NCBI RefSeq assembly: GCF_000169455.1
Contig: NZ_AAYC01000001.1
Coordinates: forward strand, 396,001 to 460,000
Direction of reading: 5' to 3'
Length of the DNA: 64,000 bases
Origin: Roseobacter sp. SK209-2-6
GTDB lineage: Bacteria; Pseudomonadota; Alphaproteobacteria; Rhodobacterales; Rhodobacteraceae
The position numbers and the translations under genes were made by a program. Below are positions 3,213 to 48,827 of the stretch, piece after piece. The notes beneath the pieces are model-generated. The model saw only the letters and a list, made by a program, of their open reading frames with translations. It had not been told where the DNA came from and ran no database searches. Position 1 is the stretch's first letter; each line of letters opens with the position of its first letter.

Positions 3213-3234
3213 GGCTTGATAGATGAGGCCAAAT

Positions 3235-3397
3235 GCTCCCGCGTCTGCAGGTGCCTTTGCCTGGCGTCAAAGTCCCCTTGGCCGACTTGGGCCTTGCCTT
3301 CGGCCCTGACCCAGGGCCGAAGGCTGCACCGTGCGGCAGCACGGTGCCATGCCCAACGGGAGCGGTTCATGTGAATGAACCGGCGACTGGCGGGAGC
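3235..3397. repeat. Structured intergenic repeat, facing pair of units (copy A)
   Basis: The outer ends are GCTCCCGC (3235-3242) and its inverse GCGGGAGC (3390-3397). Inside lie TTGGGC (3287-3292) and its inverse GCCCAA (3351-3356). Between these are two perfect hairpins: a 12-bp stem GCCTTCGGCCCT (3296-3307 with 3313-3324) and a 9-bp stem GCACCGTGC (3326-3334 with 3339-3347). A third 8-bp stem CGGTTCAT (3363-3370 with 3375-3382) sits between the right-hand GCCCAA and the end. The same blocks with different stem sequences recur at 36842-36999, and single units at 35219-35307 and 21358-21430. The plan resembles paired REP units. Confidence 0.8.
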
Positions 3398-3511
3398 GCT
3401 TTGGGGAAATAGCAAGTCGCAGATCGGGCAGGGGGCTGCGCTGTTGCCTGCAAAACTCCATTGCAAAGCAAACACAGCAACTTATGGTTGAATGGAAATG
3501 GAGGTATAGGT

Positions 3512-3856
3512 TTGGATCATGATTTCAACGCTCAACGACGGGAAACGGAAAACACCCTAGTTGATCTGGCCGAAAGAAATTGCCCTTTGCCTGCGATAGC
3601 GGATTTTGATTTCTATTTTGTTTCCAATGGGTCGGGCGCGCGTCCAGAACCTGCGGTGTCAGATCTGAAGCGACAGGGATATGCTGCCGTTTACAGTGAG
3701 GAATACAATGAGATTCAGGTGGTAGTCTATGCCCTCAGCGTGCTGCCGGAAGCGATCTGGCAACGTGAAAAGCTCTTGACGGAGATTTGCCTGCGCCAGG
3801 GGTTCACCCCTGATGGCTGGGGGTTCTTGAACAGTTCCAAACTAAACGAGGTCTGA
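3512..3856 (+). CDS. RraB-like regulator of RNase E activity
   Basis: The 114-residue protein has the RraB/DUF695-like layout: an acidic N-terminus (DHDFNAQRRETENTLVDL), then DFYFVS, DLKRQGYAAVY, IQVVVYAL and a final block GFTPDGWGF. In enterobacteria RraB binds RNase E and changes which mRNAs it cuts; a similar role here is inference. The frame is open from ATG 3461, but I prefer TTG 3512. A GGAGG at 3500-3504 sits 7 nt before it, and the protein then begins where the family usually begins. It follows the structured repeat and is convergent with the Tad AAA ATPase gene. It is monocistronic by spacing. Confidence 0.75.
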   Translation: MDHDFNAQRRETENTLVDLAERNCPLPAIADFDFYFVSNGSGARPEPAVSDLKRQGYAAVYSEEYNEIQVVVYALSVLPEAIWQREKLLTEICLRQGFTPDGWGFLNSSKLNEV

Positions 3857-21112: not shown

Positions 21113-21357
21113 GGAAATCTCCCATCGGCTGCCAGTTGCCTCTGGTTCTGGCCCCGAGACTGGGCAGAGTCAACAATACGGAGGGCGGCACGTATTACTA
21201 CGGATCGCCAGAAAGGGGTAGGGCCTGGAGCCGGGTCAAGGGCGGCAAGGCCGCCGCGCCAGCGGCTTGCCCTTGAGGCGACGGAAGGCCGCAATAGCAT
21301 GGGTTGCGCCCTTGCTGGGCAAACCTGCCCTTCAAGGGCCTCTCAGCAAAAAGAAAA
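21113..21357. other. scoA upstream region with large hairpins
   Basis: No gene is seen. A strong hairpin pairs GCCCTTG (from 21309) with CAAGGGC (ending about 21339), with an inner GGGCA/TGCCC stem. A second inverted pair CAAGGGC/GCCCTTG lies at about 21238-21277. The part nearest scoA should hold its promoter, which I could not define. Confidence 0.45.
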
Positions 21358-21430
21358 CGTCGCGCGATAGCGCGACGCTGGGCCCAACCGGGGAAGGGGG
21401 TCTTTCAGATCCTCTGAGACGGGCGGGAGC
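21358..21430 (-). terminator. Single structured repeat unit (copy D) serving as topA terminator
   Basis: On the minus strand the unit reads GCTCCCGC (21430-21423), a weak hairpin, TTGGGCCC (21387-21380), then a perfect 8-bp hairpin CGTCGCGC/GCGCGACG with a four-base loop (21358-21377), followed at once by TTTTCTTTTT. It starts 12 bp after the topA stop. It shares all fixed blocks with the units at 35219, 36842 and 3235. The final hairpin plus U tract is a textbook intrinsic terminator. Confidence 0.8.
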
Positions 21431-21442
21431 CCCCCGTTGATG

Positions 21443-35176: not shown

Positions 35177-35218
35177 GATTGTATATTCCTCTTCCGTCGT
35201 GAGGCGCAGCGGGTGAGT

Positions 35219-35307
35219 GCTCCCGCCTCCGGCAGCCCCCCTGGCATATGCCAGGGCCGCAGCAGCGGAGTTGGGCCCGGCGCCGTGCTCTGACGAGCGC
35301 GGCGCGC
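35219..35307 (+). repeat. Single structured repeat unit (copy C)
   Basis: GCTCCCGCC (35219-35227), a perfect 9-bp stem CCCTGGCAT/ATGCCAGGG (35239-35256), TTGGGCCC (35271-35278), and an 11-bp stem GCGCCGTGCTC/GAGCGCGGCGC with one G-T pair (35280-35290 with 35295-35305). Block order matches the left half of the facing pair at 36842, which also has TTGGGCCCGGCGCCG. Confidence 0.75.
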
Positions 35308-35385: not shown

Positions 35386-36822
35386 ATGACATATGCACCT
35401 GCCGATTCCGCCTTTGCCGCCCATCTGTCGAGCCTCCTGCCAGAGGGGGTGCTTTGTCCGGTTGAACCGCGCTATCTGGAAGAGCCGCGCGGGCGCTATC
35501 AAGGTACGGCAGGCTTGCTGGCGAAACCAAGCAGGGTTGAGGAGGTCTCTCTCCTGCTGCGTGAAGCCAATGCTGCGGGGGTAGCGGTTGTGCCCTATGG
35601 CGGCGGCACAGGCCTCGTTGGGGGGCAGGTCCTGCCCGAGGGGCCCGCGCCGTTGATCCTGTCTCTGGAGCGGATGAACCGGATCAGGGGCGTCTACCCG
35701 CAGGAAAATGCGCTTATCGCTGAGGCAGGCGCCATTCTGGCGGATGTACAATCTGCTGCAGAGGGGGCGGAGCGTCTCTTCCCGCTCTCGCTGGCCTCGG
35801 AAGGGACCGCGCAGATTGGCGGCAATCTGGCGACCAATGCAGGCGGGGTGAATGTGCTGCGCTATGGAAATGCGCGAGACCTCTGTCTTGGACTGGAAGC
35901 AGTACTGCCCTCGGGCGAGATCTGGCATGGGCTCAGTCGTCTGCGAAAGGACAATACGGGCTATGATCTGCGCAACTTGCTGATCGGCGCCGAAGGCACA
36001 TTGGGGGTGATCACCGCGGCTGCGCTAAAACTGGCGCCCCTGCCTGCACAGCAGGGGACGGCGCTCTTTGTGGTGCCATCGCCTGAGGCGGCTATTGCGC
36101 TGCTGGCGATGGCGCGCAACCTGCTGGGAGATGGGGTCAGCGCCTTTGAACTTATCCACCGGCAGGGGCTGGAGTTTCTGACAGAACATCTGCCGGAACT
36201 GCGTCAGCCTTTTGAGAGGCGCCCAGAGTGGTCAGTGCTGATTGATCTGGGACTGCCACCAGGTCCGGGGCCGGAGGAGGGGCTGACAGAACTCTTTGAG
36301 CGAGCCCTGGAGAGTGATCTGGCGCTGGATGGTGTGATTGCCCAATCCGAGGGTCAGCGCCAGGCTCTGTGGAACCTACGTGAGCATATCCCGGAGGGGA
36401 ACCGACGGGTGGGTGCGATCTCCAGCCATGATATTTCGGTTCCGATTTCGGAAATTCCGGCGTTCATTCAGCGTGGGGCAGAGGTCATAGCCCGGATCGG
36501 AGAAGGAGATATGCGGATCAACTGCTTTGGCCACCTTGGGGATGGCAACCTGCACTACAATGTGTTTCCGGCCAAGGGCCGAGGGCGGGAAGACTATGAC
36601 GGGCTGCGATCGGTGGTGAAGGTTGCCGTGCATGACTTGGTTGCCGAATTCGATGGCTCCTTTAGCGCGGAACACGGAGTTGGGCGGATGAAAGTCGAGG
36701 ACCTGGAAATCTATGGGGATCCGATGAAACTGTCAGCGATGCATGCCATCAAACAAGCACTCGACCCCAAGGGGATTATGAACCCGGGCGCAGTTTTCCG
36801 GTTGTCGTCTTCGGATAAATAA
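35386..36822 (+). CDS. FAD-linked oxidase (D-2-hydroxyacid dehydrogenase type)
   Basis: I choose ATG 35386, behind AGGTAGG, over 35368. The 478-residue protein has the PCMH-type FAD-binding domain (VPYGGGTGLVGGQVLPEG, SEGTAQIGGNLATNAGG, GAEGTLGVITAA) and the C-terminal FAD-oxidase domain with NCFGHLGDGNLHYNVFP and FSAEHGVGRMK. This order fits D-lactate, glycolate or D-2-hydroxyglutarate dehydrogenases. The closest resemblance by eye is to the D-2-hydroxyglutarate group, but the substrate is not certain. It is monocistronic, with structured repeats on both sides. Confidence 0.9.
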   Translation: MTYAPADSAFAAHLSSLLPEGVLCPVEPRYLEEPRGRYQGTAGLLAKPSRVEEVSLLLREANAAGVAVVPYGGGTGLVGGQVLPEGPAPLILSLERMNRIRGVYPQENALIAEAGAILADVQSAAEGAERLFPLSLASEGTAQIGGNLATNAGGVNVLRYGNARDLCLGLEAVLPSGEIWHGLSRLRKDNTGYDLRNLLIGAEGTLGVITAAALKLAPLPAQQGTALFVVPSPEAAIALLAMARNLLGDGVSAFELIHRQGLEFLTEHLPELRQPFERRPEWSVLIDLGLPPGPGPEEGLTELFERALESDLALDGVIAQSEGQRQALWNLREHIPEGNRRVGAISSHDISVPISEIPAFIQRGAEVIARIGEGDMRINCFGHLGDGNLHYNVFPAKGRGREDYDGLRSVVKVAVHDLVAEFDGSFSAEHGVGRMKVEDLEIYGDPMKLSAMHAIKQALDPKGIMNPGAVFRLSSSDK

Positions 36823-36841
36823 GAACGCTTTTCGAGCGGGG

Positions 36842-36999
36842 GCTCCCGCGCGGCCTTAGGAACCTCCCTTTCGGAGCTTCCTGGCCCCTTGGGCCCGGCG
36901 CCGTCCCGAAGGGACGGCGCGCATTTTGAGCTTGCAAAGCTCAAAATGCCATGCCCAACCGGAGAGGTTTCAAACATGAAACGCTCAACGGGCGGGAGC
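36842..36999. repeat. Structured intergenic repeat, facing pair of units (copy B)
   Basis: Ends are GCTCCCGC (36842-36849) and GCGGGAGC (36992-36999). Inner blocks are TTGGGC and GCCCAA. Hairpins are AGGAA.CTCC/GGAG.TTCCT, GGCGCCGTCCC/GGGACGGCGC, GCATTTTGAGCTT/AAGCTCAAAATGC and GTTTCA/TGAAAC. Compared with copy A the fixed blocks are kept, while stem sequences differ but remain paired. It lies between convergent genes. Confidence 0.82.
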
Positions 37000-37139
37000 T
37001 ACCCGTTCCAAATCCTCTGGCAAATCCCCGATCCAGGCCTGTTTCAGGACTTCAGACTGGCAAGTGGGCAGGCGAGAGCAGAGCAACGCTGCTTCTCCCT
37101 TTGCTTTATTGCATAGTGTCCACTGCCTGAGGATACCTC

Positions 37140-47012: not shown

Positions 47013-47828
47013 TTAGTGCATGATCGGCCTGGTTTCCACCGGAACGATGGCTTCCGGAGCCGGTGGGCGATAGCCCAGAGCACTATGCGGCCGTTTTGTG
47101 TTGTAGTGATTTCTCCATTGTTCAATCAGGATCTGGGCTTCACGCAGGCTGTAAAATACCTCTCCATTCAGCAGCTCGTCTCTGAAGCGCGCGTTGAAGC
47201 TTTCACAGTATCCGTTCTCCCAAGGTGATCCTGGTTCAATGTAGGCCGTTTGGGCACCGACCGCTGCGATCCAATCTCGAACGGCCTGAGCAATGAACTC
47301 TGGGCCATTATCTGATCTGATGAAAGCAGGAACGCCACGCAGGATGAAAAGATCTGTCAGCGCGTCAATAACTTCTGCCGAGTTCAAGCGCCTCTTCACC
47401 CGGATCGCCAGGCATTCCCGGCTGTGTTCATCCAGAATGTTCAGTGTCCGGAACGCTTTCCCGTCATCCGTTCGATGGTGCACGAAGTCATAGGACCAGA
47501 CATGGTCACGATATTCGGGCCGGAGTCGAACACACGACCCGTCGTTCAGCCAGAGCCGTCCTTTCTTCGGTTGTTTCATTGGAACTTTCAGCCCCTCACG
47601 CCGCCATAGGCGCTCAACACGTTTGTCGTTGATTTGCCAGCCGGCGTCTCTCAGAAGAGCCGCTATCCGACGGTAACCGTATCGACCATATTGGCGTGTC
47701 AGTTCGATCATGTCAGACACCAACCGGTCTTCGTCAGCACGTCCAACAGGCACCCGCCTCTGTGTGGAACGGTGCTGTCCCAGAACACGGCAGGCGCGAC
47801 GCTCTGAGACGTGGAACTGGCGTCGCAC
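47013..47828 (-). CDS. IS3-family transposase OrfB (DDE integrase core)
   Basis: The listed start at 47828 is an internal GTG. The frame continues upstream (GKLLSPSRRRNCIDHVRRQF) into the orfA end, so the enzyme is probably made as an OrfAB fusion by -1 slippage. It contains the helix-turn-helix_21 part (ELTRQYGRYGYRRIAALLRD) and the rve core. The triad appears complete: Asp in YDFVHHRTDDG, Asp in FIRSDNGPEF and Glu in ENGYCESFNARFRDEL. The end KRPHSALGYRPPAPEA is typical. The copy looks functional. Confidence 0.92.
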   Translation of the reverse strand: MRRQFHVSERRACRVLGQHRSTQRRVPVGRADEDRLVSDMIELTRQYGRYGYRRIAALLRDAGWQINDKRVERLWRREGLKVPMKQPKKGRLWLNDGSCVRLRPEYRDHVWSYDFVHHRTDDGKAFRTLNILDEHSRECLAIRVKRRLNSAEVIDALTDLFILRGVPAFIRSDNGPEFIAQAVRDWIAAVGAQTAYIEPGSPWENGYCESFNARFRDELLNGEVFYSLREAQILIEQWRNHYNTKRPHSALGYRPPAPEAIVPVETRPIMH

Positions 47829-47860
47829 ATGATCAATGCAGTTACGGCGGCGCGAGGGGC

Positions 47861-48139
47861 TCAGAAGTTTCCCCGTGCAGCTTCCGACAGAATGAGCTTG
47901 TCCAATGTCAGATCAGAAACTGCCCGACGCAGCCGGTCATTCTCCTTCTGAAGTCGCTTTAGTTCCTTCAGTTGGTCGGTTCCCATACCGCCATATTGCT
48001 TGCGCCAGAGATAGAAGGTTTGTTCTGTAATCTGCACCTGTCGAATGGCGTCTACGCGCGGCATCCCTTGGCCGCAAAGCACCTCAACCTGCCGTAACTT
48101 CGTGACAATCTCTTCGGGCTTGTGTCGCTTGATTCCCAT
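47861..48139 (-). CDS. IS3-family transposase OrfA
   Basis: A 92-residue helix-turn-helix protein that begins MGIKRHKPEEIVTKLRQVEV and ends with the leucine-zipper-like LKRLQKENDRLRRAVSDLTL and EAARGNF. This is the standard OrfA of the IS407 group, which binds the IS ends. GGGGAAAC (minus strand, 47874-47867) just before its stop is a plausible -1 slip site into orfB. No damage is visible. Confidence 0.92.
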   Translation of the reverse strand: MGIKRHKPEEIVTKLRQVEVLCGQGMPRVDAIRQVQITEQTFYLWRKQYGGMGTDQLKELKRLQKENDRLRRAVSDLTLDKLILSEAARGNF

Positions 48140-48678: not shown

Positions 48679-48807
48679 CTACCGGCTGGCGCCGGTAGGA
48701 TCCGCGATGTGGTTTTCCACGTACTGAAGTACGATGTCTTCGGTGATGGCGCCGTTGGTGGTTGAAAAATACCCTCTGCCCCAAAACCGGCAGCCCCAAT
48801 AGCGTAT
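48679..48807 (-). pseudogene. Remnant of IS200/IS605-family TnpA (C-terminal 42 residues)
   Basis: The minus strand reads RYWGCRFWGRGYFSTTNGAI then TEDIVLQYVENHIADP and stops at 48679. This resembles the C-terminus of Y1 transposases (WGRGYFSTTNG, then a helix). The catalytic HUH and tyrosine regions are missing. Its end overlaps a perfect TACCGGC/GCCGGTA hairpin (48680-48697), which may be the right end of the old element. Confidence 0.65.
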
Positions 48808-48827
48808 ATTGGCGATGTCAGAAAAAG

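Follow-up and report, generated by a model that had tools for sequence, protein, structure and literature searches.

In the account of Nunvar 2010 (PMC2817692), REPs carry a GT(A/G)G head, a RAYT gene is flanked by inverted REPs, and the RAYTs that qualify are reported from gammaproteobacteria only; inverted REP doublets have been described as REPINs (Bertels and Rainey 2011, PMC3116915). The units that we describe here in Rhodobacteraceae are like the REPs, BIMEs and REPINs of such accounts in being dispersed extragenic palindromes, in occurring as inverted pairs (an inverted partner lies within 220 nt of 90 of 289 placed units, the remaining ones being solo) and in showing complementary changes in their stems, but they differ from REPs in having two hairpins together with a fixed head and a fixed tail. 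Bidirectional intrinsic terminators, which are hairpins between the stops of convergent genes, offer a second comparison: the units also have hairpins and also sit between convergent stops, but they lack a regular T-tract outside the consensus of the genus and carry fixed head and tail blocks. A third described system is SorX (RF02784) of Rhodobacter sphaeroides, reported as an sRNA derived from the 3' UTR of ompR-1 (PMC8625941). Two of our units show a weak similarity to it on their opposite strand, behind gene 3' ends; unlike SorX, however, the units are multi-copy in each genome, their constrained strand is the other one, and the scores (23.2 and 22.2 bits) stay below the gathering score of 46.6. 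The titles, abstract openings and top-ranked matches of the open-licence PMC literature gave no description of this unit family.

Anatomy of the units in the window

The 64-kb window, that is, the whole stretch of DNA analysed here, contains six units at four places. The element at 3235..3397, which as a whole is assigned to neither strand, consists of two copies of one unit, inverted and facing each other, as seen in both its letters and its fold. Read 5' to 3', each unit is composed of a hairpin C, a linker, the head GCCCAA, a hairpin D and the tail GCGGGAGC; the stem letters of both hairpins are variable, the linker between C and the head is short and contains a fixed GC, and the head is mostly followed by CGG or CCGG. 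The original prediction had proposed fixed blocks at mirror positions, three hairpins and a right half that inverts the plan of the left one, all of which the letters confirmed. In the left unit (3226..3324, - strand) we find the tail, GCTCCCGC as read on the + strand, at 3235-3242, the head (TTGGGC on the + strand) at 3287-3292 and hairpin C at 3296-3324, whose two 13-nt arms have a complementarity of 100%, whereas in the right unit (3324..3406, + strand) hairpin C occupies 3326-3347, the head GCCCAAC 3351-3357, hairpin D about 3363-3383 and the tail GCGGGAGC 3390-3397. Our covariance model R1 detected the right unit with an E of 1.1e-10 and gave only a weak match to the left one (3226-3287, E 0.23). 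The fold of 3225-3410 reached a z of -5.66, with 0 of 200 shuffles as good, and in the folded facing form tail pairs with tail and head with head, both C hairpins being located inside. The element is present in 2 of the 12 species of the genus, the second being G301, which has an orthologous pair; the 10 further species yielded none. At the orthologous gap, G300 and G302 have no unit and carry a hairpin made of an A-run, a stem and a T-run (1395-1510 of both L263 and L261) that resembles a bidirectional terminator. Beside the element, a small gene (3512-3856, + strand) matches RraB, a regulator of ribonuclease activity (PF06877, 24.6 bits for a cut-off of 23.3).

The fixed blocks recur at three further places, each adjoining a predicted gene 3' end as had been anticipated: 21382-21430 (+ strand), 35219 onward (- strand) and 36842-36999. 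The first is a single unit (21355..21439, + strand; model R1 E 2.5e-12) whose tail, at 21423-21430, faces the stop (21443) of a - strand gene similar to DNA topoisomerase I. The second, also a single unit (35210..35307, - strand; E 0.026), has a longer D hairpin and a tail (GCTCCCGC on the + strand, 35219-35226) located past the stop (35176) of a GNAT gene; its site is kept in 10 of 11 readable species and absent in G296. The third place holds a second facing pair, with a left unit at 36833..36922 (- strand; E 1.7e-5) and a right unit at 36925..37008 (+ strand; E 1.3e-7), lying between convergent genes that end at 36822 (+) and 37140 (-). This pair is kept in all 11 readable species, and the fold of 36832-37010 has a z of -8.65, again unequalled in 200 shuffles. 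Taken by itself, the 8-mer GCTCCCGC shows no enrichment across the window (6 occurrences for 6.5 expected), and all six fall within units. A scan of the window with Rfam gave no family at its gathering score, and an integron attC reading of GTTGGGC/GCCCAAC was ruled out by hand, the order of the motifs being wrong.

Range of the family and comparison with REPs

Searches with a strict two-block pattern, GCCCAACSGGN{18,45}GGCGGGAGC, and with its reversed version as a control, detected 18 copies in the own genome of the window and 0 for the control, which excludes chance there. Conservation of the blocks in sets selected in this way is by construction, since the pattern itself requires them. All 12 genomes of the genus contain strict copies, from 11 to 26 each, with one control match in total. 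At the family level, sampled as 295 genomes with one per genus, strict copies occur in 43 genomes, 27 of them with two or more and 16 with a single one, adding up to 340 matches with a maximum of 69 in genome G073; the reversed control gave 22 matches in 21 of the 295 genomes, once or twice each, so that some of the 16 single-copy genomes may be due to chance. No strict match was found in 187 genomes of other alphaproteobacterial families, which remained from a class-wide draw of 190 after setting aside the own genome and two others of the same family, among which only the own genome matched. A covariance model built from 54 units (alignment A1, 54 of 55 selected units) recovered at least 44 units from the own genome when 150 of its 2,830 candidates were scored and E <= 0.1 was required. 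Among the matches listed (80 of 117 stretches), the named contigs correspond mostly to Phaeobacter, Leisingera, Ruegeria, Epibacterium, Tropicibacter, Tropicimonas, Mangrovicoccus and their kin, and those listed from unrelated phyla, without hairpins by eye, look like chance. A full unit whose letters are identical to one in G238 was also present on a contig titled Nocardioides marinus (L114 5958-6005, - strand), probably through contamination from a Rhodobacteraceae strain.

Both the pattern and the covariance model thus supported the predicted dispersed REP-like family with fixed blocks, also in related genomes. The broader proposal of a REP/BIME element or a structured RNA held up in its REP-like dispersion (18 strict copies and at least 44 by model in the own genome, and 69 strict ones in G073, make the units dispersed extragenic palindromes of many copies) and in its covarying stems, but not in the hallmarks of REPs. 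A GT(A/G)G head is absent from the fixed columns before C or D, both in the profile of 117 units and in alignment A1, and neither the PF01797 matches of the own genome and of nine copy-rich genomes nor 30 Y1 loci include a RAYT flanked by two inverted units. Given these two differences, we do not file the units as REPs; they look like elements that work in a similar way.

As to the RAYT gene expected nearby, the own genome has one PF01797 match, a fragment of 38 positions. At E <= 0.001, PF01797 is absent in six of the nine genomes with at least 10 strict units, including G005 and G073, and present in three, one of these matches being the fragment in the window. A model scan of the 30 Y1 loci, one per genome, gave one unit match (E 0.0085) about 1 kb off and another weak one (E 0.2), and none of the loci is flanked by units. 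On the fragment, the six genomes without match and the unflanked Y1 loci, we rejected RAYT as the mobiliser. The fragment itself (48709-48825, - strand) is the C-terminal part of an IS200-type Y1 transposase, covering profile positions 84-121 in a frame of 76 aa, and next to it two frames at 47013-48139 (- strand) resemble by eye an IS3-type OrfB plus OrfA.

Compensating changes and constraint on one strand

The stems of the units are kept by compensating changes at sites that persist among species. From 118 units in seven genomes of the genus, 104 group by similarity of their flanks into 29 sets of 2-6 species, some of them joined on one side only. At the 36842 site the covariation of stems that had been predicted is clear: 20 of 56 pairs show double changes, for 6.7 ± 1.8 in 500 runs with the 3' letters shuffled (0/500 as high) and for 2-9 pairs in controls with slid partners, and 95.0% of the cells of the orthologues (n=10) are in standard pairs. 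This alignment (A2) comprises 10 of the 12 species, leaving out G297, whose site was not matched by the extraction pattern, and G305, where the contig starts in the gap. In a total of 152 ortholog pairs, the median identity was 0.74 for D and 0.83 for C, with 0.76 for the neighbouring 400 nt, which are mostly coding, and 0.57 for the 28 nt directly outside C; unrelated units have identities of 0.60 for D and 0.71 for C. Stem scores of 5 or more were obtained for 343 D and 352 C hairpins out of 407 each (21% and 46% in shuffles), and scores of 7 or more for 132 and 317, respectively (1.5% and 5.5% in shuffles). That sites of such age show compensation is better accounted for by a role in the host, or by a process that corrects hairpins, than by mobility on its own.

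Moreover, the constraint acts on one strand, the one that reads C, head, D and tail, even where both neighbouring genes run opposite. Under a strand-symmetric stem rule applied to 382 units, of which 347 C and 321 D hairpins were used, the unit strand shows 79 G.T mismatches versus 18 A.C, and the four-base loops of placed units are GNNA in 138 cases and TNNC in 2, with three-base loops less one-sided (GNA 93, TNC 25); orthologues are numerous among the units, so these counts are not independent. When both neighbouring genes run against the unit ('--' context) the asymmetry is as strong as overall, with GNNA 24 versus TNNC 0, G.T 17 versus A.C 4, G.A 14 versus T.C 1 and G.G 9 versus C.C 0, whereas in the '++' context the loops are biased (GNNA 18, TNNC 1) and the few mismatches are not (G.T 4, A.C 3). 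Taken together, these biases mark the unit strand as the one that folds. They speak against a symmetric cruciform, and equally against a hairpin that forms in the mRNA of the adjoining gene; the gene behind which the tail sits usually has the other strand as its mRNA strand. A cruciform acting alike on both strands was rejected on the asymmetries of G.T over A.C and of GNNA over TNNC.

A closer view of hairpin D shows that it often begins with G-GA-N and ends with N'-GA-C (176 of 300 distinct D hairpins). In 170 of these, N and N' beside this tandem G.A step form a Watson-Crick pair, and all four pair types occur; the step is present on the unit strand only. A kink-turn in this G.A region was ruled out by hand, given a 5-nt bulge and an intervening G-C pair. 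At the third position of the GNNA loops C prevails (115 of 163 cases), with A or G in 31, unlike the GNRA loops of RNA. Loops of the GNNA and GNA types have a particular stability in DNA, and such a third base, taken together with this background, leans towards a single-stranded DNA form, although energy tables could not tell loops of DNA from those of RNA. We regard the family, its covariation and its constraint on one strand as firm, and our preferred reading, which we put forward as tentative, is that of a REP/BIME-like repeat family specific to Rhodobacteraceae, devoid of a RAYT and working as a hairpin of one strand.

Placement, copying and possible roles

The units lie next to the 3' ends of genes, for the most part where two genes converge, and with the tail toward the stop codon, a finding that we consider equally firm. 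Requiring both hairpins, 302 of 381 units were used, 8 of which overlap a predicted gene (genes were predicted by a finder trained on the long frames of these loci), and 294 could be placed: 195 are convergent, 49 '--', 42 '++' and 8 divergent. Among 131 background gaps of at least 60 nt, drawn from the window and 20 stretches of G073, 18 are convergent, 83 tandem and 30 divergent. With stricter flanks 289 units were placed, the set in which partners and tail distances were counted, and in its solo units the median distance from tail to faced stop is 26 nt ('+-') and 35 nt ('--'), hairpin C lying 73 nt ('+-') and 160 nt ('--') from the other gene. GGGAGC is intact in two annotated plasmid copies, whose faced stops are 29 and 17 nt away, and a third match, in Ruegeria sp. 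TM1040 and without intact GGGAGC, is found between two genes running against it. Near a unit of G073 there is a cobalamin riboswitch (125.7 bits; L466 2064-2273, - strand).

Traces of copying are most apparent in G005, the sole member of its genus in our genome set, which has 12 copies of one D type. The nine of these that were compared, near-identical and young, are alike over the unit and over some 100 nt preceding it, and diverge where GGGAGC ends, with eight additional letters in common past this point in one copy pair, so that the units are copied with a defined right end; the likeliest stop of the facing frame is found 9-79 nt past the tail of these nine copies. In G073, hairpin D and the blocks are similar across many copies beside differing C hairpins, and the full set of this genome shows no orientation bias along the contig (31 +, 38 -). 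We obtained no clean empty site whose ends could be read, G005 having no congener in the set and the gap of G296 being too diverged. A second repeat, a GC-rich hairpin followed by (C)GGAGTATTT...GATGAA, gave 17 distinct matches and 1 in its reversed control; it occurs upstream of a unit on the same strand in G005 (L411-L418) and at four loci of other genomes, L052, L056, L125 and L153, and without a unit at L058, L093, L494 and L506.

From these data we infer how the units may spread and what they may do. Their working form would be a folded single strand, more likely of DNA than of RNA, and a protein could recognise the head, the tail and a hairpin of this strand, by analogy with REPs and with the ends of IS200/IS605 elements, an enzyme other than RAYT acting on the units. 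Copies at convergent 3' ends would survive because they do little harm there, and they may keep two transcription units apart. In its full form, the scheme of a family-wide REP-like class without RAYT, made of one folded DNA strand that is copied with its end at GGGAGC beyond stops by a single-strand-acting enzyme and that then becomes an insulator of convergent genes, is possible but doubtful. REPs are tied to RAYT transposases; if true, a covarying and strand-specific repeat that lacks a RAYT in most copy-rich genomes would imply that the REP design is also reached by way of a different enzyme or of some need of the host. The anchoring at stop codons of convergent genes in many genera makes the old question of repeat function testable.

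A different role for the folded strand, which we judge rather unlikely, would be that of an RNA insulator or terminator: RNA of the unit strand would fold C and D, end in GGGCGGGAGC-CCCCCC-UUU and stop transcripts before their antisense entry into the facing gene. The convergent placement, with the tail close to the facing stop, agrees with such a role, and so do the A-stem-T hairpins that G300 and G302 have, with no unit, at the gap orthologous to that of 3235-3397. Moreover, in the units of the genus positions 0-5 past the tail are mostly C and positions 6-8 are T in 40-52%, a C-run that could pair with GGGCGGG as a short hairpin followed by a weak U-tract, and a T-run of at least 4 lies within 40 nt of 33 of 117 units, compared with 18 of 117 for the 40 nt that follow. 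However, the nine G005 copies have neither C-run nor T-tract, five C past the tail occur in 2 of 15 G073 units, and canonical terminators are similarly frequent in convergent gaps with solo units (57/158), with facing pairs (19/40) or with no unit (39/95). Nor do '--' units have an upstream gene transcribing the unit strand, and the loops are not of the GNRA type.

It is improbable, in our opinion, that these are mostly neutral repeats with no host function, whose pairing would be upheld by hairpin-templated correction and exchange between copies. In this regard, D identity falls below 60% in 20 of the 152 ortholog pairs, 7 of which keep a C identity of at least 80%, a pattern resembling the swapping of entire hairpins, and the alike D hairpins beside unlike C ones in many G073 copies point in the same direction. 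Both D stems score 6 or more in only 4 of those 20 pairs, however, so that the exchange of a hairpin 'replaced yet perfectly paired' is not general, and neutrality would leave unexplained the loop type, the tandem G.A step, the strand asymmetry, the anchoring at stop codons and the persistence of the 36842 pair in every readable species.

More improbable still, and a minor rival on the strand evidence, is that the opposite strand provides parts of mRNA 3' UTRs or 3'-UTR-derived sRNAs of the SorX kind (hairpin, CUCCCGUUGGG, GC-rich hairpin), to which the opposite strands of L284 (E 0.16 in 30 kb, 0.00086 for a stretch of 161 bases alone) and L464 (E 0.51) show sub-gathering similarity, since the G.T, G.A and GNNA asymmetries indicate the other strand and the copy number and facing pairs are ill-suited to an sRNA gene. 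Three loci were also matched by SorY, more weakly than by SorX.
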